Origin: Petrosia ficiformis
Taxonomy: Eukaryota; Porifera; Demospongiae; Haplosclerida; Petrosiidae
Reading direction: 5' to 3'
NCBI GenBank assembly: GCA_947044365.1
Contig: OX345646.1
Span: forward strand, 1,057,001-1,121,000
DNA: 64,000 nt
Shown here: positions 13,901 through 61,305 of the stretch, in pieces
Layout of the letters: the number at the start of each line of letters is the position of its first letter
Numbering within the stretch: position 1 is the stretch's first letter
The notes under the pieces: generated by a model
Told to the model about the DNA's origin: nothing
Seen by the model: the letters and a program-made list of their open reading frames with translations, nothing else
Databases searched by the model: none
Translations under genes and position numbers: made by a program

Positions 13901-16900
13901 CTACACAATACATGTATACTGTACCAAATAATAAACACTACTAATAATACAATGCCACAAGGACTAACACGATGATATAAAATGGTACATGTAACTAACT
14001 ACATTACAATTGTATGTGTAATGACAGTGATCTTAAACAACTGCTTTGATGGATTCTTACTCTAATTTTCTTGATAGGATATCCACTTGTACAGGAGCTG
14101 AGATAGCCGAAGAGGAGGAGGAGGAAGAAGAGGGTACATCTGTTATAAACTAGAATGTTAAAACAAAGCATATTATTATGAGGTGATTCTATAGTACATG
14201 TACATGTACATATACATGCGCATGTGCATGTACTGTACATGTATATGTACTATAATATATTATATTATAATAATTATGACTAAAAGATGTTATAACAAGT
14301 ATTCACTGACTTCATTGAAAATAAACAATAAACAATAAACAATAAACCAGGTGATGTACACTAAGCAATATAAGGTACAGCTTACTAATGTATACCCATT
14401 ATAATTATACATGTACATACATGTATATGTACCCAACGTAATACAATACATCACTTACTAATGTATACCCATTATAATTATACATGTACATACATGTATA
14501 TGTACCCAACGTAATACAATACATCACTTACTATTGTATACCCATTATAATTATACATGTACATACATGTATATGTACCCAACGTAATACAATACATCAC
14601 TTACTAATGTATACCCATTATAATTATACATGTACATAATGCAATACATACACTTACTAATGTATACCCATTATAATTATACATGTACATACATGTATAT
14701 GTACCCAACGTAATACAATACATCACTTACTATTGTATACCCATTATAATTATACATGTACATACATGTATATGTACCCAACGTAATACAATACATCACT
14801 TACTAATGTATACCCATTATAATTATACATGTACATAATGCAATACATACACTTACTAATGTATACCCATTATAATTATACATGTACATATATGTACCCA
14901 ACGTAATACAATACATCACTTACTAATGTATACCCATTATAATTATACATGTACATATATGTACCCAACGTAATACATCACTTAGTAATGTATACCCATT
15001 ATAATTATACATGTACATATACAGTGTATGTACAAAATGTAATACATTGTAATGTATACCCATGTACATGTCTGTCACGTCATATATACGATGATGACCT
15101 AAGTAATGTATACCCATTATAATTATACATGTACATATATGTACACAATGTAATACATAGTAATGTATACCCATGTATATGTCTGTCACGTCATATATAC
15201 ATTGATGACCTAAGTAATGTATACCCATTATAGAATATCAAGCAGTAAATTATACAACACTAATTCATTAATTGAGTTAGAAATGTGACTTGAGATGGAA
15301 AGAAAGATAGACACCTGAGGCAAATGAAAAAATGAAAAATGAGTTGCCTCAGGTGGGGTTTGAACCTACGACACTCTGACAGATGTAAGTGTTACAACTA
15401 ACTTCTGATCTGTTGAATTTTTTCAATTGCGATTCCTTTTCACGACACTCTAGTTGTAACTTTGATATGGTCTGCTTTTGTCTGTAATAATTAATAGAGT
15501 TTATATTATAATTAATAGTTAATGATATGAAATTAATTAGCTACTGAATGATTATACTGAATGCTTCAGGTTGCTTGAAGTTACAACCAAAGGAATCGAC
15601 CTATCAAATTTCACTATCACATGAATTAGTAGATTTGATTGGTAATTCTAGTCTGGGAATAGGGACAAGACTAAAACCTCAAGCACCGCAGGCACACATC
15701 ACTAGTAATAACACAAAATGCACCCAGATGTGACAATAGTCACAGAGACTAGACCTGTGAAAACCATAGGATCCCAGAACACTGAATATAATTAAATTGT
15801 GTAATTATTAAACCCATAAAAGTGTCACTAACAGTTGCTATAAGGGATTTGTCGTTCCTCATGAGTATGGTCTCCTGATTATGGTCCTAGTCATAAAAAT
15901 TTTTTGAGAGCCTACTAAAATTATAAATAGGCCATGTAATGTAACACATCAAAGTCACACAGTATCCACAGAGAGGCCATAGACCTATGAAAACTACATA
16001 TTCTCAGCACACAGGAATTGTATTCATGAATATCATTAAACTGTGTAATTACTAAACCCACAATAGTGTCACCAACAGCTGAGAATAAAAGGATTTGTTG
16101 TGCCTCACACAATTTAGCTTCATTCAAGGGGAGTTTTTCCATCCTTATTGATAAAATTTTTGAGAGCCTACTAAAATAGGCTTGTTATAAATAAGTGTTA
16201 TGTAAATTATGTAATACACCTAGTATAGTGGTGGCACTGAATACAATACCAAGTAATTTGGGAATCAGTATCGATGGCATCCAGTTCAATACTGATACTT
16301 GATAATGCATGTGCTTACATTTTTATACAAATTAAGTTAAAAATTTGGATGTGCTATGTGAATGTAAATGTTTCTGTTGAATGGGTGTGTCAGATTAAAA
16401 TAGAGGTGTGGTGATTGGATCGGTATTGGTACTTGGACATTACTCAGTACCAGAAACTTTAGACGTGATATCGAAGTAACGAGTACTTTTGGTGTCGAAT
16501 CACCCATCACTATCATAGGGGCTATTAGCATACTGAAGGAATTGTATTTATGAATGTCATTAAATCGTGTAACCAACAATAGTGTCACCAACAGCTGAGT
16601 ATAAAAGGGATTTGTTGTTCCTCATGGAATTCAGTTTTACTCAAGAGTTTAAAAAAGCCTGTAATGCAACATACAATAGGCTTATCAAGCCACATGTTCC
16701 CAGCACACTACATTTATGAATATCATTAAACTGTGTAATTACTAAACCCACAATAGTGTCACTAACAGCTGAGAATAAAAGGAAGTTGTTGTTGCTCTTG
16801 AAATTTATATCATGTAGTAATCTGGTAATCCTAGTAGTTTGACAACAAATTTTTGAAAGCCTACTAAATAGGAAATAGGCTTGTTATATGTAATACATAA

Positions 16901-19321
16901 AAGTCACACAACATTCATTAAAGCCATATGAAAACTATATCACATTGAAGGAATTGTATTTATGAATATCATTAAACTATGTAATTACTAAACCCACAAT
17001 AGTGTCACCAACAGCTGAGAATAAAAGGAAGTTGTTGTTGCTCTTGAAATTTATCATTTTCTAGTAACTAAATTTTTGAGAGCCTACAAAAATGGGCTTG
17101 TTATATCATAATATAATTGTCCTTGTAATATACGGTCAAAAGTAAAGCTACACGAAATACAACTTCCTTAACCAACACATACTCATCCAGGTGACAAAAA
17201 CACATGCATATATATATATAATTATATATATACATGTATATATAGTTTGGACCTAGTCGTAGCCGCCCTCTTAGCGAAGTGGGCGGCTATGCCAGACTAG
17301 TTTGGACCCAATTATATAGTGATAGCCTTATGGGCAATTCTTTCATATTCTGTGGTTAAGTATTATGGTGATATTATTAACATTCATAAAAGTGTAAATT
17401 AGATTATAACTGGTGTTTCAAAATAAATCCTTCAATGGGTTATTGCATTTCAATATATCAGGTATTAGTGACCATATTGTGTTAGTTAAATTAACAATCA
17501 TACCACTTTTATAAAATGCTATATTCTACTAACAATTGACAAATATCAATACTTCTATGGCTGTAGTACAAATGGCTTCATGAGATTCCTTTAAGGTTAG
17601 TAAATAACAACCAACTTAACCCAAAGTAAGTGTTGTTTTAGTTAACTACATGAATAACTATAACTAAAACCTCTTTTAGTAAGGTATTTTGACTTTTAGT
17701 TAACTAAACTATAACTAAATTACAAGTGTACTGAAATAACTATAACTAAAACCTCTTTTAGTAAGGTAATGTGACATTTAGTTAACTAAACTATAACTAA
17801 ATTACAAGTCTATTGTAATAACTACAACTAACTAAAATGAAAACTGACCAATAATGGGCACTTTTAGTTAGTTAACTAAAACTAAAGCCCTTTTAGTAAG
17901 CCTAATATTATTTAGTTAATTAAACTATAACTAAACTAAAAATTTGAGAAACCAGACATACTATAACTATAACTAAAAGTAGTCATTATTGCACTACAAA
18001 ACAAATGCAATTGGTATTCATAAATACAATTCCACTGAAGTACAGTATGTACAGAATATATACAATCTGATAATAACCATAACAATGTCTACACCTATAG
18101 TATCCTATACACCTACATGTACTATAATTTATGTACCATAACATACTACAACATCATGTTTGTGATTCCTAGAATCAACCAGAATACTATCTTCAGCCAA
18201 AGTAGGTCTATTAAGTACAGTACAACTGTACAAACCCAATATAAATGGCTACATGAGGTTAGTTAATGAGACAACCAACCTCAGCTAAAGTAGCTCTATT
18301 ATGCAGAGTACATACAAAACAAATACAATTAGTTGCATGATATTAGTTAATAACTTCAGCCAAAGTAGCTGTATTGAGTACAATACAAACCCAATACAAA
18401 TCACTATGATATTAGTTACAATACCTATACAACTGACCTAATATAATTCATATACCATACCATAGTACATAAATACAAAATTATTTCAACATTTCTTATA
18501 AAGTACAGTATAGTATGACTACTATATGACATTCCTTGCCTCTATTTGACAAAGTACAGTACAGTACAAACCATTATAAATGGACATTGTATGGCAAACC
18601 TAATAAAATGAAATTCCTTGTATCATTTTGACAACCAAAACAAAATACTTACACATGACATTTCTTGAATCCAAGTTAGTAAATTTTACAATCAATTTTA
18701 ACCAAAGCTCAACTAGGATATATGCCACCAGAAGTGGGCATGGCAATGGTTTATTTGAAACCATAACAACAAGAGACCCTAGGATTGAGGGGTGTGTCCT
18801 ATGAATTTTAATGAGGTGCCGTATATCCTAGTTGATCTACTCAACAATGATACTTCTTCTGCACCAACACAAGCTACACAACACAATAATATAATGCTAA
18901 CAAACCTGTCAATGATTTGACTCTTTTCACTCAATATGTTCATTAAACTACGCAACTTCTGAGTAGTGATTTCTCCTTTAATAGGTGGACTTCCACCATG
19001 TGAAAGTGACCTCTCGTGAATTCGATCCAAACTGGGAGATGAAAATGCGTGACTTATATAATCATGTCGCTCGGTAGTGTGGCGACTTATAATAGGACTA
19101 CTTGTGGGACTGTAGGCTTTGGGATCATACTGAGGTACTAGTTGTGACTTTTGAGGGGGTGTGTAACCGACTAGAGGAGCAACCATTGCTGTAGGGGGTA
19201 GTTTTGAAGGAACATAAGATGTTATAGTAGGGGATTGGCTTCCTTCATTATTAAATCTTTTATGAGGTTCATTTGAGACAATTGATTCAGTTCCAGCTGA
19301 TGTCTTTGTAACAACATCCAT
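7913..19321 (-). CDS. 14-exon coiled-coil protein, centrosomal type (CEP85-like, tentative)
   Basis: Exons (minus): 19321-18906, 15481-15403, 14149-14061, 13155-13098, 12315-12239, 12154-11983, 11589-11525, 11097-11010, 10945-10787, 10254-10177, 9935-9873, 9803-9735, 8825-8726, 8079-7913. Every junction is GT-AG and in phase, giving 559 residues. Residues 1-about 130 are polar, Ser/Pro-rich and probably disordered. From [17 protein letters not shown] on, the protein is nearly continuous heptad-type coiled coil (for example [13 protein letters not shown] and [12 protein letters not shown]). The tail has [12 protein letters not shown] and ends [14 protein letters not shown]. Organisation and tail recall centrosomal CEP85/CEP85L, but I cannot verify this. 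Introns are filled with minisatellites, and intron 1 (3.4 kb) holds four small-RNA modules. It is divergent from the reductase at 19552 and shares its 230-bp promoter region. Confidence 0.8.
8070..8240 (-). pseudogene. Duplicated fragment of the last coiled-coil exon
   Basis: The piece 8192-8233 repeats 8026-8072 (CTGATTCCAGTGTCATCACA) and encodes a degraded copy of [16 protein letters not shown] (as [14 protein letters not shown]). It lies in intron 13, just upstream of the functional last exon, and has no good acceptor. It probably arose by a local tandem duplication of about 165 bp that includes part of the repeat around 8107-8180. Confidence 0.7.
8451..8655. mobile_element. hAT-like MITE with 8-bp target duplication
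   Basis: 205 bp with ends CAGTGTCTTTGATGAG and TATCAAAAACTCTG, flanked by the perfect 8-bp duplication ATTGTTGG (8443-8450 and 8656-8663). CAGTG/CAGAG ends plus an 8-bp duplication are hAT hallmarks. A related, uninterrupted sequence at 49.89-49.98 kb carries ATTGTTGG once (49946-49953), i.e. an empty site. Inserted in intron 13 of the coiled-coil gene. Confidence 0.9.
9262..9535. repeat. 25-bp tandem repeat, about 11 copies
   Basis: Units AGCAGCCACAATGGCTTAGA / AAATA, with small variants and one 4-bp insertion, in intron 12 of the coiled-coil gene. Confidence 0.9.
9950..10168. repeat. Minisatellite related to 5.7-6.3 kb array
   Basis: About four units of ATTAATGTGTTCTAAATATA / GTAACATATAGAGTAACATT in intron 10. 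Confidence 0.85.
10258..10720. repeat. (ATGG)n microsatellite
   Basis: Long GATG/GGAT tetranucleotide tract with ACTGGATG, ACTAGATG and ACGGATG interruptions, in intron 9 directly beside exon 10. Confidence 0.95.
11196..11415. mobile_element. hAT-like MITE, diverged copy
   Basis: Starts CAGAGTTATTGATAAG. It shares GTTCTCTCTGGGCC, ATTATCACTAACAGCATTAA and CCCAATGGCGCACACAC blocks with the 8451 element. The right end (CACATCAAACATTTTGAT) has decayed. Confidence 0.75.
11590..11980. other. Intronic TACATGTA-rich low-complexity sequence
   Basis: ATACATGTACATGTG-type repeats and a partial duplication of GGTGGGTTACAGATACA (about 11813 and 11893). No coding or RNA signal. Confidence 0.7.
12345..12926. 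repeat. 38-bp minisatellite, about 15 copies
   Basis: Units TGTTTGTACAATTACACTGA / AGCAATTTGATTGGTCAA with A/G and CACTG/CACAG variants, in intron 4. Each unit contains an ATTGG (inverted CCAAT) box. Confidence 0.92.
13285..13900. repeat. (TGTACA)n and 32-38 bp palindromic repeats
   Basis: 13285-13440 is TACATG repeats with duplicated AATCAATAATTAAAACTTCC blocks. 13540-13890 is units of ATTTATAAATATTGATTGTACATG-type sequence in which every unit is close to self-complementary. Intron 3. Confidence 0.85.
14385..15235. repeat. Minisatellite, unit about 70 bp
   Basis: About 12 units of ACTTACTAATGTATACCCAT / TATAATTATACATGTACATA, several with CATGTATATGTACCCAACG. Each unit contains CTTACTAA and TACATGTACATA palindromes. 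Intron 2. Reading frames through it are artefacts. Confidence 0.92.
15311..15403 (-). repeat. tRNA-related (SINE-like) fragment
   Basis: On the minus strand TTAGTTGTAACAC (A-box-like) is followed about 35 nt later by GTAGGTTCAAACCCCAC (B box/T arm) and CCTGAGGC. The acceptor-like CACCTGAGGCAA also occurs inverted (15311-15322 against 15344-15355), forming a hairpin. The 5' acceptor strand does not match, so it is not an intact tRNA. It abuts exon 2 of the coiled-coil gene and supplies its 5' splice site (GAA|GTTAGT). Confidence 0.45.
15783..15932 (+). ncRNA. Putative Sm-class small RNA module (diverged)
   Basis: Distal element 15783, PSE-like AAACCCATAAAAGTGTCAC (about 15810), TATA-like CTATAAGGG (15838), Sm-like AATTTTTTGAG with one extra T (about 15898), stem-loop AGCCTA...TAGGC (15909-15932). 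First of a cluster in intron 1 of the coiled-coil gene, antisense to it. Confidence 0.5.
16024..16182 (+). ncRNA. Putative Sm-class small RNA module
   Basis: All parts present: CATGAATATCATTAAAC (16025), AAACCCACAATAGTGTCA (16054-16071), AATAAAAGG in place of TATA (16084), Sm site AATTTTTG (16155-16162), stem-loop AGCCTA-CTAAAA-TAGGCT (16165-16182). TATA-to-Sm distance is about 71 nt. Known biology: Sm sites are RAU4-6GR followed by a 3' hairpin. Inference: the stretch before the Sm site is the 5' part of a small RNA. Confidence 0.6.
16214..16530. other. Dispersed AT-rich repeat (TACTTGATAATGCATGTG family)
   Basis: GGGAATCAGTATCGATGGCA and ACTTGATAATGCATGTG blocks recur at 43.7, 54.17, 57.2 and 59.77 kb. 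The right end CGAATCACCCATCACTA resembles ends of small DNA elements such as that at 47.96 kb. No gene. Confidence 0.5.
16536..16655 (+). pseudogene. Degenerate small RNA module
   Basis: TTATGAATGTCATTAAA and CAATAGTGTCACCAACAGCTGAGTATAAAAGG (in two parts) are kept. The ACCCA half of the PSE and the Sm site are lost; an AAAAAAGCCTGTAATGC remnant remains. Confidence 0.55.
16714..16881 (+). ncRNA. Putative Sm-class small RNA module
   Basis: TTATGAATATCATTAAAC (16714), AAACCCACAATAGTGTCA (16744), AATAAAAGG (16774), Sm AATTTTTGA (16848-16856), stem-loop AGCCTA...TAGGCT (16858-16881). The first half of the body (GAAGTTGTTGTTGCTCTTG) equals that of the module at 16.96 kb; the second half is unrelated and 30 nt longer. 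Confidence 0.6.
16961..17098 (+). ncRNA. Putative Sm-class small RNA module, short form
   Basis: TATGAATATCATTAA (16961), AAACCCACAATAGTGTCA (16990), AATAAAAGG (17030), Sm AATTTTTG (17071-17078), stem-loop AGCCTACAAAAATGGGCT (17081-17098; one G-U pair). TATA-to-Sm is only about 41 nt, the shortest spacing seen. Confidence 0.6.
17255..17302. repeat. GC-rich hairpin
   Basis: TAGCCGCCC (from 17270) pairs with GGGCGGCTA (to about 17291) around a CTTAGCGAAG loop, framed by TAGTTTGGACC on both sides. It stands out in AT-rich sequence. A comparable GC-rich hairpin is at 34.69-34.74 kb. Possibly the end of a dispersed element. Confidence 0.55.
17636..17998. repeat. 82-bp minisatellite family 'TAACTAAA', copy 2
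   Basis: Same unit as at 1-345, here closed on the right by CATACTATAACTATAACT and AAAAGTAGTCATTATTG. Intron 1 of the coiled-coil gene. Confidence 0.88.
18000..18705. other. Intron sequence with weak CCAAAGTAG repeats
   Basis: Diverged repetition of CCAAAGTAGNTNTATTAAGT, TACAGTACAA and AAACCCAATA motifs at spacing of about 70-110 bp. No gene seen. Confidence 0.5.
18710..18836. mobile_element. 125-bp MITE, TCAACTAGGATAT termini
   Basis: TCAACTAGGATATATGCCACC (18710 on) is inverted at GGTGCCGTATATCCTAGTTGA (to about 18835). The core holds TGAATTTTAATGAGGTGC, related to the 671-880 repeat. It sits in intron 1 about 70 bp from exon 1. Confidence 0.7.
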
Positions 19322-23687: not shown

Positions 23688-23852
23688 TAATGAATATAAT
23701 TGGGGATATTTAACTAAACCCACAATATACTGAAGAGCATGCAGCTTTATAAACCAAAGCTGAGCCGGTTAGGTGGATCAGTTCCTTACTGCTAATGTAA
23801 GTGGAGTCTTTCCATTATAAAACAAATTTTTGAGAGCCTGAATAAAAAGGCT
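23688..23852 (+). ncRNA. Putative Sm-class small RNA module
   Basis: AATGAATATAATT (23690), AAACCCACAATATACTG (23716), TTTATAAACC (TATA, 23746), Sm AATTTTTG (23825-23832), stem-loop AGCCT-GAATAAAA-AGGCT (23835-23852). Lies 30 bp upstream of and divergent from reductase copy 2. Confidence 0.6.
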
Positions 23853-24136: not shown

Positions 24137-24278
24137 CATGAATATAATTAAATGTATGTTAACCAAACCCACAATGTACTCAACAACATGAGGCTTTATA
24201 AACCAAGCTTGACCACTTTGCACATGGATTAGTCTTTGTATTTGTTAAAGCAAATTTTTGAGAGCCTGCTTCAGGGCT
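24137..24278 (+). ncRNA. Putative Sm-class small RNA module
   Basis: CATGAATATAATTA (24139), AAACCCACAATG (24165), TTTATAAACC (24195), Sm AATTTTTG (24253-24260), stem AGCCTG...CAGGGCT (24263-24278). Nearly identical to the module at 26.80 kb, with which it shares several hundred bp of flank. Confidence 0.6.
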
Positions 24279-26589: not shown

Positions 26590-27030
26590 ATGTTCATATT
26601 GTAGTAACTACGAATGTTGTGGACAAGAGTAAACTTTAATAAAAATTTGGTATTACATCACAATACTATGATGGAAACCCTATTCCTATGATAGACGTGT
26701 ACTAGTACCATATATATTCTAATTATTTTATGAAGGCTTACATGAAGCACGAACTAGTACATTCAGTGCATACTGAACACATATGTGAATGTAGGAAGTC
26801 ATGAATATAATTAAATGTATGTTAACCAAACCCACAATGTACTCAACAACATGAGGCTTTATAAACCAAGCTTGACTACTTTGCACATGGATTAGTCTTT
26901 GTATTTGTTAAAGCAAATTTTTGAGAGCCTGCTTCAGGGCTTGAGTATAGCTTGTAATTAGTATTATTACTTAAAAAGGACATACACGCATGTCAGCTTC
27001 TTATAATTGATACAAGCATCAGGAGCTTAT
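26590..27030. repeat. Recent segmental duplicate of 23.94-24.36 kb
   Basis: About 430 bp almost identical to 23.94-24.36 kb (CGAATGTTGTGGACAAGAGT ... CTTCTTATAATTGATACAAG), including one whole small-RNA module. Only small indels separate the copies. Confidence 0.85.
26800..26941 (+). ncRNA. Putative Sm-class small RNA module
   Basis: Copy of the 24.14-kb module: distal element 26801, PSE-like ACCCACAATG (26829), TATA-like TTTATAAACC, Sm AATTTTTG (26916-26923), stem-loop 26926-26941. Confidence 0.6.
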
Positions 27031-28268: not shown

Positions 28269-28431
28269 ATTATGAATATAATTGGGGAAATGTAACTAAA
28301 CCCACAATATACTCAATAACTTGCGGCTTTATAAGCCTGGTTGAAGATCAGATATAGTAGAAAGTCTACAAACTAGTATCCATTCTATGGATTATAAAAG
28401 AATTTTTGAGAGCCTTAATTAATAAAAGGCT
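28269..28431 (+). ncRNA. Putative Sm-class small RNA module
   Basis: TTATGAATATAATT (28270), AAACCCACAATATACTC (28297), TTTATAAGCC (28328), Sm AATTTTTG (28401-28408), stem AGCCTT...AAGGCT (28411-28431). The upstream 80 bp are about 88% like the 23.69-kb module; the body is unrelated. Confidence 0.6.
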
Positions 28432-29003: not shown

Positions 29004-32000
29004 TTAATTCCAGCTAAGATCATCTCTCTGAAGAGTATTTTGTAGTTTCTTCATTTTTCGTAAAACCTGTAGACTCTCTTGAGAACTAGTTTTTGAAACT
29101 GCATCATCATTACTACCACTTGAAGTGCTATCAAAACCATGTGAAGTACCCCTACGAGACGTTCCCGCTGTAGGTTTAGATTTCACTGTTGTCACCACTC
29201 TAACTTCTCCATCACGAGGTATAGGCGTGGCAATCCGAGAAGATCCTGATTTTTCTGACTGCTTGGTTTTTTTCTTAGTTCTAAGCAAACGTTTTACAAC
29301 CTGTATCTGTTCCATTTTATTCTCAAGTCTATTTACAATGTGACCAAGTTCAGTTTCCAGTTCTGCTATGTGACTTGAAGTGTTAGGTCCTCCTTGTTGC
29401 TGTTCTTGTATCATTCTAGCTAGCTCTTGGTGTTCACTAAAAGAGAATTTCAAATATTTCTTTAATAAGAATATAACTACTTTCATGTCAATACTTAACT
29501 AAACCTTATTGAAAGAAACTTCCAATGTGCAGTAAATGAACGAAGGTTTGAAACTTCAACTAGTGTTGTTTTAGTTTGACAATAATGACCACTTTTAGTT
29601 ATAGTTATAGTATGACTAGATTCTTACAATTTAGTTATAGTTGTAGTTAATTAACTAAAATAATATTAGGCTAATTAAAAGGGTTTTAGTTTTAGTTAAC
29701 TAACTAAAAGTCCCCATTATTGGCCATTTTTCATTTTAGTTATTACAATAGACTTGTAATTTAGTTATAGTTTAGTTAACTAAAAGTCACAATGCCTTAC
29801 TAAAAAAGGTTTTAGTTATAGTTATTACAATAGACTTGTAATTTAGTTTTAGTTTAGCTAACTAAAAGTCACAATGCCTTACTAAAAAAGGTTTTAGTTA
29901 TAGTTATTACAATAGACTTGTAATTTAGTTTTAGTTTTGTTAACTAAAAGTCACAATACCTTACTAAAAAAGGTTTTAGTTTTAGTTATAGTTACTACAG
30001 TACTTCGAACCTTTTTCCCAGCCCTAACAGATACTATACCCTATTCAGATACTATACCTATTCAGGTCTCTATTCTAGTATAGGTACAACTCTTAATACT
30101 TACAAAGCCAAATGTCCAAATTCTTCTTCTAAAGCTTTTAAAAGTCCTTGAAGTTCTTCCTTAGATGCTCCTGGAGATGGAGTTTTGGTTTTCTTACTTT
30201 CCTTTCCCCCTGTCTTCTTCTTTACTGTTCCTTTTGCAATATTTGAAGCTGCTGCTCCACAGAGTAATGGATTATGATACTTCATTAGTGACAACACTTT
30301 CTGGTAATTAGCTCCAACCGAATGAGATGGACTGGTTGACTGTAGAGAACAGAGAGTCATAAATATATTAAAGTTTAGGCAACCTAAGTTTCTAAAAGGG
30401 ACACGTTCCATATCATCCTTTGGTGGAAACATTGATATACGTAAGATACAAAAGTTCACTGCAAAACCCACAGTAATGTCATCAATAGCTGGATTTATAA
30501 ACAATAAACAAACACACATTGAGTGTTTGTATCTTCAGATTTGAAATATAGATTATATATTTGAAGCAAATGGGATAAAATTAAATTAAAAGCCTTCAAT
30601 AAGAATATATATGGTACTATTCTTCTAAGCCAATACACTAGGCAACAACATTGCGCAAGTATTGTATTATTGTCAAAGGAAGTATTGCATGTAACTGTTG
30701 CTATAGCAACAATGTTGCCTAGTATAGGGTGAGCTTTACAGGACTGTGCAAACACATCCTGTCTTAATACCCCCTCTTTTTTAGAAGCACATGCCACATG
30801 GTCTTTCACAAAGCCTTTCAGTATGGCTCTCAAAACTTTTTTTTTTTTTTATGACGACCAAGGGCAAAACAAACAAGTGTAGCTAAGTTATATTTTCTAC
30901 CTTTTATACCTAGTCCTTTATGTCTTTATTGTGGGTTAAGTTGTTCAATACCTCAAAGTAGAAAGTTTACAATGAAGCTGCATTAATGAACAAGGCTGCA
31001 CATCTAGAAGGCTAAGGCTCAATTTTGAGTGTCACCAGCAGGAAGTTATGAATACCATTAAAAATAGAAACCCACAATAATGTCAGTACTAGCAGGATTT
31101 ATAAACCATGAAACAATTTCATTAAAAACATATACAATCACCTCCATTTTTTTCACAACTTTAATGAAATTTTTGAAAGCCTTCAAAAAAGAGGCTAAAA
31201 TTGGTCATTAGAAAAGCATTGAAGTAGGTTTATGCTTCATGGTCTCCAGATGATGGTAGAAGGCTGGTATCCAGGACGTTTCACTGCTTTTGTTACATCT
31301 ACCAGTTTTGATATGCCGCTTTTGAATGCACAAAGTCATGTGATCAATTAATAAACTGAGCAATCTGATTGGATACTACAAGATTCAGGTAATAAACATC
31401 ACTACACCAGGAATGTTGGTCCAAGATACGAGACTGTTTTGAATGGAGGGCTACTATATATATAACATTGAGTATATAAAGTACTTGACATTGTTACGTT
31501 TACGACTTATGGTACTATATTCGAGCACACAACTTAGCTTATATAATGATACAGGAATGTTGTTATTGTGGGTTTACTTAATTAGCTATCGTCATGACAA
31601 TCATGTTCATAATGATCATGTGATGTTAATATTGTGGGTTCATAATATTTCCTGTTTTCATAACCTATCGGCATGACAACCATGTTCATAATGATTAATA
31701 TTGTGGGTTTACTCAGTCCCAGCTTTACCATAACAACAGGAAGCATGGTGAATATGATTAGTTTGTGTAATCCACAAACCCACAATACAGAGAGGGCCAA
31801 GTGAATATATAAGCTTATGAGAGGTGTGCATACTTTATTCAGATAGACACCTCATATAAGACACTTTACTAAATCAATTTTTGTGAGCCTAAACTATAAA
31901 GGCTGAATTTATCATTCTAATATGATACAGTTGATACCAGAACGCCCTGTAGCAGTTTCTAACCAATTAATGATGGCCTTGTTGTGGTTTGATGTCATAA

Positions 32001-35000
32001 CTGAATCAGGGAGGGGAATATAGAAGGGGTGATGGTAAGTACTCCATAACCTCTTCTCTTATTTCCCACCCTGATTCAATAACCCCTTGATAATTTGATT
32101 TTGGTGACCATGTTATTTCTTGAATTTATTAAACACAACAAATACACCTTCTTTTTTGGAACTGTTCATAATCCCCAGCTTTATCAGGGGAAGACAATGA
32201 AAAGAGAAGATTCAATTCTGTTTTAGGGTGTGTCAGAGACACAACCAAACTGAAATAAATATGCAACTTGCTTTTTCTTACCATCTTCGATAACACATGT
32301 TCTGCGTAATGTGGGTGTGGCATTAACGCCACTACACACTGTATGCATTATTTAAGATTTTATAAGCCGGCACAACTCTGCAATTATGGTATGATTATGT
32401 GAACGTCTGCACCATTATTTCCTACTCTGAACTGAATCACTTGATTCACTTCCTGGGTAGATGCCATAATACTAAACCCACAAAGAAGCCTGCAACATTT
32501 GGCAGTAATACATTTTCTATGGAAGATAATTTTTTAGAGGCCCTTATGAGGTTTAAACTCATTTTAATAATGACTTACAGTTCCAACTACAAACGGCACA
32601 TCTTTCATATTAAGATGATAGTGTATACCGGGAACTGGTTTAGAGTGAGTGAATTTAGGTTGAGAGAGAGGTGTCATCTTTTTTCTTCTAACTGCCACCT
32701 TTTTGGGTCTTTCAAAACCGATATTATCCACCTCGACTAATACCTAAATGAGAGAGTTAGGAGAAATTATCAGAGAAGCTGAAGGTAAATGGATGGATAG
32801 AAAGATACATGTATACATATAGTACTGCATTCTTCAATGAAAATAGCATTTTCTCAATAATTATGAGTACCATAAAAGCAATTAATGATGTTATAATCAC
32901 AAGAAATGACATTATCAGTACACTTATTACAATATATGTTACATCTTTCAGAGAAAATGCAATGACAGGTAATGATTGATATTGATTTCTGATCAAATCA
33001 TAGGTACATTACTACTGATATGTCCCAGTAGTACATGTACAATGTATGTAGAAATGAACTTGCATAAAACTGACCCTGGGTTGTGGTGTTTTATATGACT
33101 TCTGTGCCTGTCTTTTTTGCCATTGTTGCCGTAGTAATTGACCCTCTAGGTCACGTAATTTAGACTAAGAGAACAGACAGAGACAATATAAATGTATATA
33201 CATGTACGTACATGAACTAGTATTGTTTTAGTTAACTATAACTAAAACCTCTTTTAGTAAGGTATTGTGATTTTTAGTTAACTAAACTATAACTAACTAA
33301 AATGAAAATCAAACAGTAATCGGCACTTTTAGTTAGTTAACTAAAGTTTAGTAAGCCTAATACTATAGCTAGAGAAATGAGGCATACTATAACTAAAAGT
33401 GGTCAGTATTTTTATAACGAAACATTACAACATTGTAACCTAACTTATGGATTGGCCAGTTAGTTAAATTTGAAAAGGTAAGCCTTTTAGTTCAGGCTCT
33501 CAAAAATTGTATATATACTGATGCAGTAAAGATTAGAATATTAATCCTCATCACACACCTGAGTTTATATAATCTACACAGTGTTCCCTGTATTGTGGGT
33601 TTGTGGATTACACAACTAATCATATTCATGACTCTTCCTGTGTATGTACATGGGGTGTTTGTAATACCTGGACTCTGGACTGGACTGGACTCGGATCAAC
33701 TATAATATTTGCCACCTCATTAATAGGTGTGGCAGGTGGCTCACCAGATTCGCGCATCCAACTTCTCTATTGCACTGACAGGGACCCTACCAATACAAAG
33801 CTAACCCTAGGATGTACGACCAAGGAACCCTATTTCCTGGGTTTTACGTTAAACGGGTTAGTACAAACACCAGATCTTCATCGCTTGATAATCATCATCC
33901 ACCATCGTTGTACACTTACATGCCGATTCACGTGGTTTCAGTTAAATTAATTGACAGTTATTATAAACTCTCCAGTCCAGTCCAGAGTCCAGGTTTTACA
34001 AACACCCATGTACATGTATATAATCTACACAGTGCTCCCTGTATTGTGGGTTTATGGACTACACAACTAATCATATTCATGACTCTTCTTGTGTACATGT
34101 ACCTACTGGTTATACACTCGTTTGAAACTTTATAAATCGTCAGCCTTTTTACTCAGGCTCACAAACATTTTCATGTATCATGATGATGTAGTAAAGAAAT
34201 GTATAATTTGTATAGAATTATATCTTACATCTAATTCTCAAACAATGAAGAAGTTCTTAAGTCTACCTCTAAAGTCTCCGTGTGAAAACGTATTGAATCA
34301 CCTCTACCACGTGTTTAGTACATGACGCATGCACATACCTGTAGGTGGAGCTAGGTAGCTTTCTATCTTGCATCAATGGTGGTGTAGTAGCAACCATTAC
34401 CTCGATTGTTTTTGGTTTGAAGTGTTTCTTGGCTAGCGACAGCCATGAAACAGGATCACTTGTGTTTTGTGTGTCCATATTTACTCTCGTTATTGCCCTC
34501 ATTTCATCTTAAAGTTGTGAAACGGTAACTGTGAGCTATAAAAATTGTCATAACTTTAGAACCAAAAGGTTTTAGAAGAATTCCTACGTTATTTTTTTTC
34601 TTGTATAATTTGAAGTCTACCAGTACCCTGTTTGAATTGTCAATGTTTTTATTTTTCCAGAAAAAGTGTTAACACACAGACAGACAGACAGACAAAACGA
34701 TTACCGTACCCTTCCGCCTACGCTACGCGGCGAGGGTAATTATGAGTGTATAACTATCATCACTAACAGGTAGTGATGGTACATGCACATAGGAAAGGTC
34801 ATGAATATGATTAGTTGTGTAATCCACAAACCCACAATACAGGGAGCACTGTATAGGTGTATAAGTACTTATACACAGGAATAGACATGAATGCAATTAG
34901 TGTACTATATTCTAATAAGGCGATGGAGCATCTGATTTCTGAGATCAGACATCTAAGCTTTATATACTTGCACAGTGCTCCCTGTGTTGTGGGTTTATGG

Positions 35001-41887: not shown

Positions 41888-42041
41888 TTATGAATATAAT
41901 TAAATTAAATAAATAGTAAACCCACAATAGTGTCACATGGTGTCAACTATAAAAGGGGCAAATTAAATGTCATTACAAATAGGCCATTTTAACTACTCAT
42001 CATTTTATACCCTTCAATTTTTGGAAGCCTTCGAATAGGCT
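41888..42041 (+). ncRNA. Putative Sm-class small RNA module (subfamily II)
   Basis: TTATGAATATAATTA (41888), AAACCCACAATAGTGTCA (41918-41935), TATAAAAGG (41948), Sm AATTTTTGGA (42016-42025), stem AGCCT-TCGAAT-AGGCT (42026-42041). The PSE-to-TATA gap is 12 bp. First of eight related plus-strand modules between 41.9 and 48.4 kb. Confidence 0.65.
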
Positions 42042-42196: not shown

Positions 42197-42349
42197 TATG
42201 AATATAATTAAATTAAATAAATAGTAAACCCACAATAGTGTCACATGATGTCAACTATAAAAGGGGCAAATTAAATGTCATTAAAAATAGGCCATTTAAA
42301 GGACTCATCATTTAATACTCTTCAATTTTTGGAAGCCTTCGAATAGGCT
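42197..42349 (+). ncRNA. Putative Sm-class small RNA module (subfamily II)
   Basis: Near-duplicate of the 41.89-kb module: PSE-like 42226, TATA 42256, Sm AATTTTTGG (42324-42332), stem 42334-42349. Body differs at about 10 scattered positions. Confidence 0.65.
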
Positions 42350-42655: not shown

Positions 42656-42805
42656 TTATGAATATAATTGAATTAAATAAGCAGTAAACCCACAACACTG
42701 TCACATGGTGTCAACCATAAAAGGGGCAAATTAAATGCCCAAAAATTGGCCACTTCAGGGTACATCATTTAAACCCTTCAATTTTTGGAAGCCTTCGAAT
42801 GGGCT
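42656..42805 (+). ncRNA. Putative Sm-class small RNA module (subfamily II)
   Basis: TTATGAATATAATTG (42656), AAACCCACAACACTGTCA, CATAAAAGG in place of TATA (42716), Sm AATTTTTGG (42780-42788), stem AGCCT-TCGAAT-GGGCT with a G-U pair (42790-42805). Confidence 0.6.
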
Positions 42806-43493: not shown

Positions 43494-43635
43494 TATGAAT
43501 ATAATTAAATATTAAACCCACAATACTGTCACATGGTGTCAACTATAAAAGGGGCAAATAAAATTTTGGAAAATTGGCCATTGTAGTATTTGATCATTTA
43601 ATCCTTTCAATTTTTGGAAAGCCTTCGAATGGGCT
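43494..43635 (+). ncRNA. Putative Sm-class small RNA module (subfamily II)
   Basis: TTATGAATATAATTAAA (43494), AAACCCACAATACTGTCA (43514), TATAAAAGG (43544), Sm AATTTTTGG (43609-43617), stem AGCCT-TCGAAT-GGGCT (43619-43635). Confidence 0.63.
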
Positions 43636-44136: not shown

Positions 44137-44272
44137 TTATGAATATAATTTAACTGTGTAATTTGCAACCCACAATAGTCTCACCAACAGCTGAGAATAA
44201 AGGAAGTTGTTATTGCCAAAGAATAATTCATTCCCAAAAAATTTTTGGGAGCCTACTAAAATTTAATGGGCT
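44137..44272 (+). ncRNA. Putative Sm-class small RNA module
   Basis: TTATGAATATAATTTAAC (44137), AACCCACAATAGTCTCA (44167), AATAAAGG (44196), Sm AATTTTTGGG (44240-44249), stem GCCTA...TGGGC (44250-44272). Short body of about 44 nt. Confidence 0.58.
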
Positions 44273-45979: not shown

Positions 45980-46118
45980 TTATGAAATAATTAAATTAAG
46001 TAAACATTAAACCCACAATAATGTCACATGGTGTCAACTATAAAAGGGGCTGATTAAATTCAGCAAAGCTGGTCACTTCAATCGACTACCTCAATTTTTG
46101 AAAGCCTTTGAATGGGCT
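45980..46118 (+). ncRNA. Putative Sm-class small RNA module (subfamily II)
   Basis: TTATGAAATAATTAAA (45980), AAACCCACAATAATGTCA (46009), TATAAAAGG (46039), Sm AATTTTTGA (46093-46101), stem AGCCT-TTGAAT-GGGCT (46103-46118). Confidence 0.6.
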
Positions 46119-46801: not shown

Positions 46802-46955
46802 TTGTGAATATCATTAAATGTATGTAACTATGAAACCCACAATAGTGTCAGTAGCAGCTGGCTATAAAAGGAAGTTGTTGAGTTACAGTTCTATACTAAT
46901 TAATATACGTGCTACCTGTAACAATTTTTGAGAGCCTACTGAAAATTAGTGGGCT
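46802..46955 (+). ncRNA. Putative Sm-class small RNA module
   Basis: TTGTGAATATCATTAAA (46802), AAACCCACAATAGTGTCA (46833), CTATAAAAGG (46862), Sm AATTTTTG (46923-46930), stem AGCCTACT...AGTGGGCT (46933-46955). Confidence 0.62.
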
Positions 46956-47785: not shown

Positions 47786-47934
47786 GTTATGAATATAATT
47801 AAACTAAGTAAACAGTAAATCCACAACACTGTCACATGGTGTCAACTATAAAATGGGCAAATTAAATATGCACAAAAGGTCATTGTAATTATTCGTCATT
47901 TTTTCCTTAATTTTTGGAAGCCTTCAAACGGGCT
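47786..47934 (+). ncRNA. Putative Sm-class small RNA module (subfamily II)
   Basis: TTATGAATATAATTAAA (47787), AAATCCACAACACTGTCA (47817), TATAAAATGGG (47847), Sm AATTTTTGG (47909-47917), stem AGCCT-TCAAAC-GGGCT (47919-47934). Confidence 0.6.
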
Positions 47935-48255: not shown

Positions 48256-48402
48256 TTATGAATATAATTAAATTAAGTAAACAGTAAACCCACAATACAG
48301 TCACATGGTGTCAACTATAAAAGGGACTGATTTTATTATTTGCTTGAATGTTCACTTATATACAGTCTAATGATTCAAATTTTTGAGAGCCTTAAATGGG
48401 CT
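48256..48402 (+). ncRNA. Putative Sm-class small RNA module
   Basis: TTATGAATATAATTAAA (48257), AAACCCACAATACAGTCA (48286), TATAAAAGG (48316), Sm AATTTTTGA (48378-48386), stem AGCCT-TAAAT-GGGCT (48388-48402). A (GAAC)n tract follows. Confidence 0.62.
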
Positions 48403-49490: not shown

Positions 49491-49646
49491 GTTATGAATA
49501 TAATTAAATTGTGTAAAATTAATCCCACAATAGTGTTAGTAACATCTGACTATAAAAGGAAGCTGTTGAATGATATAAATTAAGTAGTTCAACAACCTCT
49601 TTGTGTACATTCTAATTTTTGAAAGCCTACTAAAATAAAGTCGGCT
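49491..49646 (+). ncRNA. Putative Sm-class small RNA module
   Basis: TTATGAATATAATTAAA (49492), AATCCCACAATAGTGTTA (49520), TATAAAAGG (49551), Sm AATTTTTGA (49614-49622), stem AGCCTACT...TCGGCT (49624-49646). Confidence 0.6.
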
Positions 49647-49785
49647 TAGAGTTATGCAAAGATAGTGGTTAGTGAAAACACGGAGTGTTTGCTTGTGAAT
49701 CTTGTAAACACAGTACACATAGTAATATTATAATACTGTACTGCAATACTAACCCCTCCCTGTGGTCTATGTGCTTAACAATAGT

Positions 49786-50341: not shown

Positions 50342-50493
50342 AGCCCCTTTTAAAGTAGGCTCTCAAAAATTTGGTCAAAAAGATGATGTCAAACACTACT
50401 ACAGTACTACTCTCTGACTTCAGAGAGAATCAACAATTCCTTTTATAGTGCAGCTGTTAGTGACACTATTGTGGGTTTGATTATGTTCATAAC
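50342..50493 (-). ncRNA. Putative Sm-class small RNA module (subfamily III)
   Basis: Minus: GTTATGAACATAATC (50493), AAACCCACAATAGTGTCA (50478-50461), CTATAAAAGG (50448-50439), Sm AATTTTTGA (50371-50363), stem AGCCT...GGGCT (50361-50342). First of four minus-strand modules in 0.7 kb. Confidence 0.62.
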
Positions 50494-50518: not shown

Positions 50519-50665
50519 AGCCTCTTTCGGTAGGCTCTCAAAAATTAATAATACTTTATATAGCTGGGTGTCTGTGTAGCTGCTCAACTGTTTCCTTTAT
50601 AGTCCAGCTGTTAGGGACACTATTGTGGGTTTAGTGACTATACAATTTAATTATGTTTATAACAA
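50519..50665 (-). ncRNA. Putative Sm-class small RNA module (subfamily III)
   Basis: Minus: TTATAAACATAATTAAA (50663), AAACCCACAATAGTGTCC (about 50633), CTATAAAGG (50602), Sm AATTTTTGA (50546-50538), stem AGCCT-ACCGAAAG-AGGCT (50536-50519). Tandem duplicate of the next module. Confidence 0.62.
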
Positions 50666-50688: not shown

Positions 50689-50832
50689 AGCCTCTTTCGG
50701 TAGGCTCTCAAAAATTAATAATACTTTATATAGCTGGGTGTCTGTAGCTGCTCAACTGTTTCCTTTATAGTCCAGCTGTTAGGGACACTATTGTGGGTTT
50801 AGTGACTATACAATTTAATTATGTTTATAACA
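50689..50832 (-). ncRNA. Putative Sm-class small RNA module (subfamily III)
   Basis: About 170-bp tandem duplicate of the previous module; differs by a 2-bp TG loss in the body. Same Sm site and stem. Confidence 0.62.
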
Positions 50833-50874: not shown

Positions 50875-51026
50875 AGCCTCTTTCGATAGGCTCTCAAAAA
50901 TTAAAAAATAAGTTATACTGCTGGGGTAGGGTGTGTGTAGCTGCTCAACAGCTTCCTTTTATACTCAGCTGTTGGTGACACTGTTGTGGGTTTAATAATT
51001 ACACAATTTAATCATATTCATAACAA
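50875..51026 (-). ncRNA. Putative Sm-class small RNA module (subfamily III)
   Basis: Minus: TTATGAATATGATTAAA (51024), AAACCCACAACAGTGTCA (50993), GTATAAAAGG (50963), Sm AATTTTTGA (50902-50894), stem AGCCT-ATCGAAAG-AGGCT (50892-50875). The loop base change leaves the stem intact. Confidence 0.62.
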
Positions 51027-52791: not shown

Positions 52792-52943
52792 TTATGAATA
52801 TGATTAAACTAAACCCACAATAGTTTCACCAACAGCTGACTATAAAGGCTCATGTGTTTACCCATGTATTAGCAGCTGCTTTATGGAGGGCGTTGATTCC
52901 TCACTGTAATAAAAATTTTTGAGTGCCTAATTGTGAATTAGGC
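52792..52943 (+). ncRNA. Putative Sm-class small RNA module (type A, unit 1)
   Basis: TTATGAATATGATTAAAC (52792), AAACCCACAATAGTTTCA (52811), TATAAAGGCTCATG (52841), Sm AATTTTTG (52914-52921), perfect stem GCCTAATT-GTG-AATTAGGC (52925-52943). Body differs from the type A copies at 55.86 and 58.04 kb. Confidence 0.65.
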
Positions 52944-53133
52944 TTATAATTATTTATTATTTATTATTTATTTTGGCATAATTAAGGGATAGTATTATGG
53001 TAATGCTATACTAACCCATGATGTATAATAGTCAAGTGTAATGAGGCCAAATTATATAGACCTCATCATTGGACTCTAAATGTACTCATGTGTTAACTGC
53101 ATTTATCATTTGTACCTCATACCTCTTTGTTAG

Positions 53134-53946: not shown

Positions 53947-54111
53947 TATGAATATCATTAAACTGTGTAGTTATTAAACCCACAATAGTGTCACTGACAG
54001 CTGACTATAAAAGGACTTTAGCTCCAGTAAGTATGCAACTGTTGTTCAATTTCCTATAATTTTTGCTACAATTTTTGAGTGCCTAATACAGTGAATTCAC
54101 TGAAATTAGGC
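53947..54111 (+). ncRNA. Putative Sm-class small RNA module (type B, unit 1)
   Basis: TTATGAATATCATTAAAC (53946), AAACCCACAATAGTGTCA (53976), TATAAAAGGACTTTAGCTC (54006), Sm AATTTTTG (54070-54077), long stem-loop GCCTAAT...ATTAGGC enclosing CAGTGAATTCACTG (54081-54111). A second AATTTTTG lies 12 nt earlier (54058). (TAA)n tail follows. Confidence 0.66.
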
Positions 54112-54113
54112 TT

Positions 54114-55860: not shown

Positions 55861-56012
55861 TTATGAATATGATTAAATTAAACCCACAATAGTGTCACCA
55901 ACAGCTGACTATAAAGGCTCATGGTGTTCACTTGAAGTCCTTAGCAGCTATATGGAGAGCAGTTTTTCCTCAATCTAATAAAAATTTTTGAGTGCCTAAT
56001 TGTGAATTAGGC
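55861..56012 (+). ncRNA. Putative Sm-class small RNA module (type A, unit 2)
   Basis: TTATGAATATGATTAAA (55861), AAACCCACAATAGTGTCA (55880), TATAAAGGCTCATG (55910), Sm AATTTTTG (55983-55990), stem GCCTAATT-GTG-AATTAGGC (55994-56012). Body diverged from unit 1, same 73-nt TATA-Sm spacing. Confidence 0.65.
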
Positions 56013-56211
56013 TTATAATAATAATTACAATATTTATTATTTATTTTGGCATAATAGGGGATAGTATTATGGTGTTTATAGTCATGCTATATATACTAAC
56101 CCATGATGTATAATAGTCAAGTGTAATGAGGCCAAATTATATAGACCTCATCCATTGTACTCTTAAGTGTTAACTAGATGTTATCATTTGTACCTTATAC
56201 CTCTTTGTTAG

Positions 56212-57022: not shown

Positions 57023-57180
57023 TTATGAATATCATTAAACTGTGTAGTTATTAAACCCACAATAGTGTCACTAACAGCTGACTATAAAAGGACTTTAGCT
57101 CTACAAAAGTCAACGTCTCTTTTTTAAATATTGTCTACAATTTTTGAGTGCCTAATACAGTGAATTCACTGAAATTAGGC
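57023..57180 (+). ncRNA. Putative Sm-class small RNA module (type B, unit 2)
   Basis: TTATGAATATCATTAAAC (57023), AAACCCACAATAGTGTCA (57053), TATAAAAGGACTTTAGCTC (57083), Sm AATTTTTG (57139-57146), long stem-loop as in unit 1 (57150-57180). Body CTACAAAAGTCAACGTCTCT... is unlike units 1 and 3 and shorter (56 nt TATA-Sm). Confidence 0.66.
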
Positions 57181-57335
57181 TTGTAATAATATTATGATAA
57201 CAGTATATAATTTCCATTTGGGAATCAGTATTGATGGCATCAAGATGATACTGATATTTGGTGCTGATATTTGATGATGTGTACACATAATAATGTTGTT
57301 TTTGAAATGACTACTTTTAGTTAGTTATAGTATGC

Positions 57336-57489: not shown

Positions 57490-57569
57490 TGTTAACTTAC
57501 CTTGTAGACCTCATAAATGTACTCATGTGTTAACTAGATGTTATCATTTGTACCTTATATATACCTCTT

Positions 57570-58036: not shown

Positions 58037-58190
58037 TTATGAATATGATTAAACTAAACCCACAATAGTGTCACCAACAGCTGACTATAAAGGCTCATGT
58101 GTTTACTCCAGGTCCTTAGCAGCTGCCTTGTGGAGTGAGGTTTGTCCTCAATGAAATAAAAATTTTTGAGTGCCTAATTATGAATTAGGC
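58037..58190 (+). ncRNA. Putative Sm-class small RNA module (type A, unit 3)
   Basis: TTATGAATATGATTAAAC (58038), AAACCCACAATAGTGTCA (58056), TATAAAGGCTCATG (58086), Sm AATTTTTG (58161-58168), stem GCCTAATT-ATG-AATTAGGC (58172-58190). Only the loop differs from units 1-2; the body differs strongly. Confidence 0.65.
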
Positions 58191-58356
58191 TTATAATAAT
58201 AATTACAATATTTATTATTTATTTTGGCATAATAAGGGTAGTGTACTTACCCATGATGTATAATAAAGTCAAGTGTAATGAGGCCAAATTATAGACCTCA
58301 TCATTGGACTCATGTTAACTGCATTTTATCATTTGTACCTTATACCTCTTTGTTAG

Positions 58357-58547: not shown

Positions 58548-58585
58548 GTAAGTTTCACTTAAATAGAGTACATGTATATAAATAA

Positions 58586-59548: not shown

Positions 59549-59721
59549 TATGAATATCATTAAACTGTGTAGTTATTAAACCCACAATAGTGTCACTAAC
59601 AGCTCACTATAAAAGGACTTTAGCTCCAGCAAGTGATCAAATCGTTTCAAATGGTTTCAAATGTCTTGGAATTTCCTGTAATTTTTGAGTGCCTAATACA
59701 GTGAATTCACTAAAATTAGGC
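59549..59721 (+). ncRNA. Putative Sm-class small RNA module (type B, unit 3)
   Basis: TTATGAATATCATTAAAC (59548), AAACCCACAATAGTGTCA (59578), TATAAAAGGACTTTAGCTC (59608), Sm AATTTTTG (59680-59687), long stem-loop (59691-59721; CACTAAAATTAGGC arm variant). Body contains repeated GTTTCAAATG and is 72 nt from TATA to Sm. Confidence 0.66.
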
Positions 59722-60016
59722 TTGTAATAATAATAATAATAATGAATTAATGATAGTATGTAATTTCCATTTGGGAATCGGTTTCGATGGCATCAAGATG
59801 ATACTGATATTTGATGCTGATATTTGATGATGTGTACGTAATAGTGTTGTTTTTGAAATGACTACTTTTAGTTATAGCATAGATAATTAATACTACGCAA
59901 CCGGGATAGGAAAATCTAATCAAACGAATGATACAATACGTGTTGAATTACTGAAACGTCACGAATTAATAATCGTGAATATAACCGGCAACGTGACTAC
60001 TCGTGTTTAAGAGAAC

Positions 60017-60617: not shown

Positions 60618-60781
60618 CATGAATATAATTATAGAGTGTATTTTTGTAAACCCACAATAGTGTCACTATCAGCTGATTATAAAAGGTTTTGAGGTTAAGT
60701 GATCATTAAAGTGTGTCATCATGAGATATGAATAATGAATTTCAAAATTTTTGGGAGCCTGGGCCGTGGTGTGTGCAGGCT
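60618..60781 (+). ncRNA. Putative Sm-class small RNA module
   Basis: CCATGAATATAATTATA (60618), AAACCCACAATAGTGTCA (60648), TATAAAAGG (60678), Sm AATTTTTGGG (60746-60755), stem AGCCTG...CAGGCT (60756-60781). The sixth pair here is G-C where others have A-U, so the stem is kept by a paired change. Confidence 0.63.
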
Positions 60782-61158: not shown

Positions 61159-61305
61159 AGCCTATTTATATAAGGCTTTCAAAAATTGTCTAAATTAAGG
61201 AGACACAACACTCCATTTTGCTGCATATAGTCTGCAAACATTTTCATACCTTTTATAATCACCACCTAGTGAGACTCTTGTGGGTTCAATTATAATGATA
61301 TTCAT
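61159..61305 (-). ncRNA. Putative Sm-class small RNA module
   Basis: Minus: TATGAATATCATTATAATT (61304), GAACCCACAAGAGTCTCAC (61287), TTATAAAAGG (61258-61249), Sm AATTTTTGA (61187-61179), stem AGCCTTATATAAATAGGCT (61177-61159). Confidence 0.58.

Follow-up and report, generated by a model that had tools for sequence, protein, structure and literature searches.

A dispersed gene family in a 64,000-nucleotide stretch of the genome of the sponge Petrosia ficiformis (contig OX345646.1, positions 1,057,001 to 1,121,000 of the forward strand; hereafter the window) very probably consists of small nuclear RNA (snRNA)-type genes for Sm-class RNAs, as judged from their sequences. Each gene joins a conserved promoter to a conserved Sm-like site and a short hairpin, with a variable part between them. 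Among these variable parts we find a previously unnoticed, strand-specific excess of sequences predicted to be antisense to ankyrin-repeat codons. We propose, at slightly short of an even chance, that the family forms natural antisense small nuclear ribonucleoproteins (snRNPs) whose variable parts act as guides aimed at least partly at ankyrin-repeat transcripts.

A family of Sm-RNA units in the window and beyond

The window is part of a contig here called C11, in a genome of 191 Mb and 29 contigs. A preliminary description of the window had reported a dispersed, two-strand family of about 30 copies. The family is confirmed, and the actual count is 35 units spanning 15810–61287 (27 on the plus strand and 8 on the minus strand) versus 0 complete units in 20 dinucleotide-shuffled windows, despite 3-23 promoter-element-like sites per shuffle. 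A unit was defined by a proximal sequence element (PSE) with at most two mismatches to AAACCCACAATA, by AATTTTTG with at most one mismatch, and by GCC shortly downstream.

The units are clustered and share a plan that runs, in order, from the PSE through a TATA box, a variable stretch and the Sm-like AATTTTTG to a short hairpin. Elements resembling AAACCCACAATAGTGTCA are common to them, with the TATA box beginning ~30 bases past the first A, and TATGAATATNATTAA (at most two mismatches) lies within 45 bases upstream in 30 of the 35. The fixed plan reported earlier holds, with a TATA-to-Sm distance of 44-79 bases rather than the 41-76 given then. Likewise, most stems have the AGCC...GGCT arms described before, whereas six units (52811-59578) instead begin with AGTGCC. 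The units are listed here from PSE to hairpin end in window coordinates.

15810..15933, plus: Sm-RNA unit, Sm site AATTTTTT
16054..16182, plus: Sm-RNA unit, variable part antisense to ankyrin-like DGKTPL (p ~0.001)
16744..16881, plus: Sm-RNA unit
16990..17098, plus: Sm-RNA unit
23716..23852, plus: Sm-RNA unit, variable part antisense to ankyrin-like NGKTPLTLAVRN (p ~0.001)
24165..24278, plus: Sm-RNA unit, near-identical to 26828
26828..26941, plus: Sm-RNA unit, near-identical to 24165
28298..28431, plus: Sm-RNA unit
30812..30938, minus: Sm-RNA unit, Sm site AAGTTTTG
31068..31196, plus: Sm-RNA unit
31776..31904, plus: Sm-RNA unit
33481..33602, minus: Sm-RNA unit
35091..35218, minus: Sm-RNA unit, Sm site AGTTTTTG
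41918..42041, plus: Sm-RNA unit
42226..42349, plus: Sm-RNA unit
42686..42805, plus: Sm-RNA unit
43514..43635, plus: Sm-RNA unit
44166..44272, plus: Sm-RNA unit, shortest variable part (~12 nt)
46009..46118, plus: Sm-RNA unit
46833..46955, plus: Sm-RNA unit, chance-level Rfam SmY match (46889-46956) over the predicted transcript
47817..47934, plus: Sm-RNA unit
48286..48402, plus: Sm-RNA unit
49521..49649, plus: Sm-RNA unit, variable part antisense to ankyrin-like HKEVVELL (p ~0.003)
50342..50478, minus: Sm-RNA unit
50519..50632, minus: Sm-RNA unit, duplicate of 50800
50689..50800, minus: Sm-RNA unit, duplicate of 50632
50875..50993, minus: Sm-RNA unit
52811..52944, plus: Sm-RNA unit, variable part antisense to ankyrin-like GINALHKAAAN (p 0.063 alone)
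53976..54112, plus: Sm-RNA unit, promoter, Sm site and hairpin near-identical to 57053 and 59578, variable part different
55880..56013, plus: Sm-RNA unit, variable part antisense to ankyrin-like GKTALHIAAKD (p ~0.001)
57053..57181, plus: Sm-RNA unit
58056..58191, plus: Sm-RNA unit, variable part antisense to ankyrin-like GQTSLHKAAAKD (p ~0.01)
59578..59722, plus: Sm-RNA unit
60648..60781, plus: Sm-RNA unit
61159..61287, minus: Sm-RNA unit, variable part antisense to ankyrin-like GDTTLHFAAYS (p ~0.001)

Genome-wide, an exact 16-mer of the promoter element occurs 65 times, and a 35-place promoter signature with one mismatch allowed has 159 matches; the reversed control of each gives 0. Locations were taken from ~100 listed places among the 159 matches, and these include clusters at C7 5.79-5.97 Mb, C9 4.17 Mb, C10 5.10 and 5.87 Mb, and C11 1.07-1.13 and 5.59-5.60 Mb. 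For further analysis we combined the window with 28 additional loci (20 stretches of 10 kb around exact-motif places and 8 short loci). This sample yielded 99 units, of which 98 were kept; L033:7232, which has no proper Sm site or hairpin, was left out. An Sm site is present at 99 of the 110 promoter-like sites in the sampled DNA. A promoter-only search of a viral contig collection found no relatives, and four exact 17-mers in prokaryotes, none with a TATA box correctly placed downstream, were taken as chance.

Some sites depart from the common plan. Within the window, a PSE and TATA box without a downstream Sm site occur at 16570, 31575, 34996, 35298 and 35511, either as solo promoters or as decayed units. 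On C1, a unit at L003 ~1518 (minus strand) has a variable part identical to that of L027:906 over 31 bases and is broken off just past the Sm site. A separate, near-uniform subfamily on C1 and C3 (L001, L002 and L005-L008) combines the family PSE with a conserved body and, as its Sm-like site, ATTTT(T)GG; a GGAGGG/CCCTCC hairpin is present in L001 and L002, and the TATA box has been lost from L005-L008. It is perhaps another Sm-class RNA.

Promoters shared with U2 and U6 genes

The preliminary description had put forward a comparison of the PSE with the promoters of the species' own U genes, and that comparison, which covered U2 and U6 genes, came out in favor of the family. Rfam models located 14 U2 matches (12 over cut-off) and 3 U6 matches. 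The sequence (A/C)AACCCACAATA lies just upstream of 9 of the 14 U2 matches, the other five being broken, fused to other DNA, or weak. The element AAACCCACAA is common to the family, U2 (upstream of 9 of the 14 matches) and U6 (both full-length genes), and a block resembling CAGGAAGT is found upstream of family units and also upstream of U6.

TATA spacing separates the two gene types. It is 31 in 7 of the 8 U2 genes measured (one is without a TATA box) and 37 in both full-length U6 genes. Spacing in the family is 30-31 in 85 of the 98 units, and the other 13 have a variant box or none by the pattern used. Because the family spacing matches that of U2, unlike that of U6, the units likely have U2-like promoters of the RNA polymerase II (Pol II) type. 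Pol III would be prone to terminate at the T5 run within the Sm site. As measured in six U2 genes, the U2 RNA starts 31 bases past the TATA box and ~62 past AAACCC, and we therefore placed the predicted start of the family RNAs at the same position.

Two further features of the U genes were seen in the sample. Three tandem PSE and TATA blocks (spacing 36-37) lie upstream of a U6 gene at L024 1271-1600. Several U2 matches (L015, L016, L017, L021 and L022) adjoin common long open reading frames (ORFs) and their flanks, as if an element inserts into U2 genes; the ORF in L021 carries C2H2 zinc fingers, and that in L015 is without a Pfam match. Elements specific to U2 genes and lacking long terminal repeats (non-LTR elements) are known.

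Predicted RNAs with a variable 5' part

The plan proposed earlier, a variable 5' part followed by an Sm site and a 3' hairpin, is borne out in the 98 units. With the U2 start assumed, the predicted RNAs of 92 units, counted as far as the end of the hairpin, are 40-82 nt long (median 64), compared with the ~60-110 nt suggested earlier. The predicted 5' part is 12-56 nt long (median 34.5).

Conservation is sharply partitioned along the unit. Information content is 1.4-2.6 bits over most of the PSE core and 0.5-1.8 over the TATA block, falls to 0-0.3 from base 39 to the Sm site, and returns to 1.4-2.5 over AATTTTTG. Each base of AATTTTTG is agreed by 95-98 of the 98 units, and A or G follows at 88 of the 99 listed sites. 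The element is of the SmOPT type, AAUUUUUGGAG, which is exact in one unit; most units have AATTTTTGAG.

The hairpin evidence comes from 106 arm sequences (the 98 units and 8 more), for which the best-pairing arms were chosen, so the paired share is biased. Their arms are AGCC/GGCT in 73, GACC/GGTC in 4, GGCC/GGCC in 3 and TGCC/GGCA in 2, with G-U variants in 9, arms one base out of register in 14, and a mispaired stem in 1. The informative part is the stem with compensatory changes on both sides. Stem length alone is weak evidence, since stems of at least 5 pairs occur at 95 of 99 sites as against 66 of 99 shuffled tails. The terminal hairpin is predicted at -7.8 kcal/mol. A hairpin or microRNA-type variable part was ruled out, as this region folds no better than shuffled sequence (z -0.06).

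An excess of variable parts reading as antisense to ankyrin-repeat codons

An ankyrin consensus was used to score the 98 variable parts, with 1,500 dinucleotide-shuffled versions of each as background. Antisense scores reach p<=0.01 in 11 of the 98, compared with 2 in sense, 1 when reversed, and 1 expected. A repeat run at the same threshold gave 11 antisense and 1 sense, and a first test with 100 shuffles had given 7 and 2 (17 and 9 at p<=0.05). Antisense controls using LRR, WD40, TPR, C2H2, EGF and ARM consensuses, together with six shuffled ankyrin consensuses, gave 0-3. Some of the 11 positive units are paralogous and represent ~ten lineages by eye.

The peptides read from the opposite strand resemble ankyrin repeats: NGKTPLTLAVRN (unit 23716), GKTALHIAAKD (55880), GQTSLHKAAAKD (58056), GDTTLHFAAYS (61287), DGKTPL (16054) and YIKAGADKDVH (L029:1577). 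The GxTxLH-type codons lie at a similar distance from the Sm site, namely 13 bases in 58056, 55880 and 52811, 11 in 61287 and 23716, and 14 in 16054. By eye, these six units represent ~three promoter types; 52811 and 58056 are close relatives of 55880.

Rapid change of the variable part

Units 53976, 57053 and 59578 match at 98-100% over the promoter and the Sm-hairpin module, and at 65-69% over the variable part. To measure rates we used 13 of 19 qualifying duplicate pairs, taking those with the closest flanks first, counting no unit twice, and accepting only alignable flanks. Variable parts carry 23 substitutions in 423 bases (0.054), compared with 96 in 4,792 (0.020) for the flanks, which corresponds to an odds ratio of 2.7 (p 1.3e-4) by a Fisher test that assumes independent sites; with all events counted, leave-one-out values remain at p <=1.7e-3. 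Indels alone do not differ significantly between variable part and flanks in the 13 pairs (p 0.19). The Sm-hairpin rate of 0.016 shows no clear difference from flanks at this short distance. A codon-position bias in related guides was judged by eye only, was inconsistent between two groups, and was not used.

Search for targets

Ankyrin-like stretches are abundant in this genome. A first look gave 5,453 candidates, the 150 scored gave 246 matches, and the ORFs extend up to 3,088 codons. A large ankyrin array occupies C7 5.886-6.265 Mb. Three groups of units, at 5.871, 5.918 and 5.963 Mb, are interleaved with giant ORFs of this array at 5.886-5.910, 5.932-5.955 and 5.979 Mb. Giant ankyrin ORFs also form an array at C7 0.97-1.73 Mb, and one match with an internal stop appears among the rows listed for these arrays.

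Guides were searched genome-wide in sets of 4, 14, 1 and 1 out of the 98. A candidate target on C1 from the guide BLAST turned out to be another Sm-RNA unit. Besides its own locus, a 24-mer of guide 55880 matches C2 at two places, with 3 mismatches and 19 contiguous nt; in frame, these sites would read TPALHIAA. For nearby cis targets, all 98 guides were compared by local BLAST with the sampled DNA after masking the units, and the six best matches proved to be unmasked family copies. Guide 23716 ranks next, matching 17 bases on the same strand at window 24360-24376 with 34.2 bits, compared with 32.2 for the best shuffled guide (one set); the remaining matches are at or below the shuffled level.

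Several results weigh against guides directed at ankyrin-repeat transcripts. Of the 98 guides, 87 have no ankyrin signal at p<=0.01, and at p<=0.05 the sense control is raised too (9 of 98, compared with 16 antisense and 4 reversed). A near-exact target was not found for the guides searched, and no target is proven: when 14 ankyrin-like guides were run against the genome by BLAST, the 17 matches at E<=10 were without exception members of the family; a 25-mer taken from guide 23716 matches nothing but itself genome-wide when up to 3 mismatches are allowed; and the C2 sites of guide 55880 are unconfirmed, with at least two of the four bases tested for flanking ankyrin glycine codons missing. In duplex-energy calculations against 900-base pieces from four ankyrin genes, the sense strand is favored only slightly, and for three of the four genes (mean z -0.49/-0.41/-0.41/+0.06 versus -0.10/-0.11/-0.21/+0.02). 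Clusters other than that on C7, including C10 and two on C11, have no adjoining ankyrin gene among the listed matches. The rate comparison has its own cautions. Its Fisher tests are generous in assuming independent sites, and the pair thresholds were chosen after a first identity comparison. The variable part is faster than the flank in only 8 of the 13 pairs, the promoter rate in recent duplicates equals the flank rate (0.020), and, with indels included, the rate is also a little elevated in the stretch just ahead of the predicted start, which would not be transcribed (p 0.047).

A proposed antisense system and its alternatives

Under the antisense snRNP proposal, Pol II snRNA-type genes would produce short Sm-class RNAs, each with a single-stranded guide of ~12-56 nt, an optimal-type Sm site and a terminal hairpin. 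The RNAs would be transcribed and bound by the seven-protein Sm ring, and the guide would pair with pre-mRNA or mRNA from gene families rich in repeats, including ankyrin-repeat genes, thereby changing splicing, stability or translation. After duplication, the guide would be mutated or exchanged while the promoter and the Sm-hairpin module are kept. The family would then be the natural counterpart of engineered U7 SmOPT antisense RNAs. A wider version, which we put forward only tentatively, is a natural, fast-diversifying animal antisense snRNP system in which the chassis stays constant and about a hundred or more interchangeable guides co-evolve with ankyrin-repeat and perhaps other fast-changing families. 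To our knowledge, known Sm-class RNAs each keep one sequence for one job. If the proposal is true, evolution may also have used the Sm ring as a general carrier of programmable antisense RNA. Sponges would then have a new level of gene control, which might serve large repeat-protein families, and antisense snRNA therapy could draw on design rules found in nature.

The strongest competitor, although we think it unlikely, is that these are real Sm-class RNAs that function independently of guide pairing with ankyrin transcripts, for example SmY-like splicing helpers or decoys for Sm or SMN proteins, in which the 5' part drifts freely. It accommodates the conservation of promoter, Sm site and hairpin only, the lack of a target class for most guides, and one chance-level SmY match (E 2.1) over one predicted transcript. 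However, free drift predicts that guides change at the rate of the flanks, whereas a rate 2.7 times higher was seen, and it predicts no strand-specific ankyrin signal.

Compensatory stem changes, and a promoter geometry that is fixed across diverged units, make it improbable that the units are mostly silent pseudogenes or mobile repeats with an snRNA promoter, which segmental duplication and gene conversion have dispersed, and whose ankyrin likeness is left over from captured gene fragments. An ordinary repeat would also keep its middle, which is here the sole unconserved part, and the ankyrin codons lie 11-14 nt from the Sm site in units of ~three promoter types. The points that favor such an origin are the 11 of 110 promoter-like sites without an Sm site, the recent segmental copies, the truncation of some copies (L003), and a promoter that changes no more slowly than the flanks in recent pairs.

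Guides might instead be directed at a fast-changing foreign or selfish target, such as a virus or transposon, with ankyrin just one target class. Guides that change faster than flanks and differ strongly between near-identical units would suit this idea, as would the lack of a close host gene match for the guides searched. We nevertheless consider it very improbable, as no guide was matched to a virus or transposon, with 14 of the 98 guides in the genome BLAST and the viral collection searched by promoter only. Finally, spliced-leader (SL) RNA genes with many leader variants are hardly credible: SL RNAs do have the same general plan, with the Sm site preceding a hairpin close to the 3' end, but the variable part holds no conserved leader or splice donor anywhere (0-0.2 bits), and leaders differing in nearly every copy would not serve trans-splicing.

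Comparison with known RNAs

By analogy, the nearest layout is that of engineered U7 SmOPT RNA. According to excerpts of two reports, these constructs combine an snRNA promoter, an antisense sequence, AAUUUUUGGAG and a hairpin (PMC11232981; PMC5333040). As far as the excerpts describe them, engineered U7 SmOPT (and U1-type) antisense snRNAs resemble the sponge family in having an snRNA promoter, a AAUUUUUGGAG-type Sm site and a 3' hairpin, and their free antisense sequence at the 5' end corresponds to the proposed guide. They are man-made and aimed at one exon, whereas the sponge family is natural, occupies many loci, and has diversifying guides and candidate targets.

Natural U7 snRNA likewise has a short 5' antisense part, an Sm-type site and a 3' hairpin. 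Its special Sm site is given in excerpted text as AAUUUGUCUAG (PMC11232981) and its 5' end is fixed for histone pairing, whereas the sponge family has AATTTTTG, followed by A or G at 88 of 99 sites, in place of a U7-type site. The U7- or SL-like plan reported earlier holds for the layout; identity with either RNA is not supported. With 65 of 44,411 candidates scored, the U7 model gave 5 weak genome matches; 0 are over cut-off, and no listed family place is among them. There is no conserved position between the TATA block and the Sm site and no leader ending at a GU donor, as an SL RNA would have. A U5 variant was set aside as well: scoring 46 of 12,757 candidates gave 6 U5 matches, which lie on C7 and C8, and not one of them coincides with a listed family place. 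Within the window, Rfam gave 0 matches at gathering score.

Nematode SmY RNAs are also short Sm-class RNAs from a multigene family. Their sequence is common to the members from end to end, unlike the sponge family, whose 5' part is not conserved. They are also associated with SL1 trans-splicing, and a paper on partners of the SL1 snRNP names SmY RNA 44 times. SmY identity was rejected, as the best match (window 41000-61400) scores 19.8 bits versus a cut-off of 39 (E 2.1), and no match reaches the cut-off in the whole window.

The HSURs of Herpesvirus saimiri are a handful of viral RNAs and differ in this from a large host family. Pairing of an Sm-class RNA with cellular RNAs, an HSUR feature in the portion of the source used, is what we propose for the sponge family; HSUR2 is described there as recruiting host microRNAs to mRNAs (PMC6763288). 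Dictyostelid Class I RNAs, according to an excerpted account, are 42-65 nt long and come from a large gene set with an element, the Dictyostelium upstream sequence element (DUSE), ~60 nt upstream and a highly variable interior (PMC7919456). By that account they resemble the sponge family as a multigene family with a common upstream promoter element and a variable region. They have their own stem joining the ends and an 11-nt motif, whereas the sponge family has an Sm site, a 3' hairpin and a variable 5' end. Class I identity was rejected, there being no conserved 5' end or motif in the sponge variable part. We found no description of such a family in the open-licence literature searched by title or abstract start, a scope that lies outside subscription papers and preprints.

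Other features of the window

An 82-bp tandem repeat recurs at 17653, 29737, 36436, 47337 and 52215, and a 59-bp satellite occupies the window end (61334-64000). A 380-amino-acid ORF at 6493-7635 (minus strand) has no Pfam match; its 15 listed matches are all without a given name, and several are apparently on one contig. The window also holds an aldo/keto-reductase gene, whose best organism-named relatives among 120 listed are from the sponges Ephydatia muelleri, Geodia barretti and Amphimedon queenslandica.

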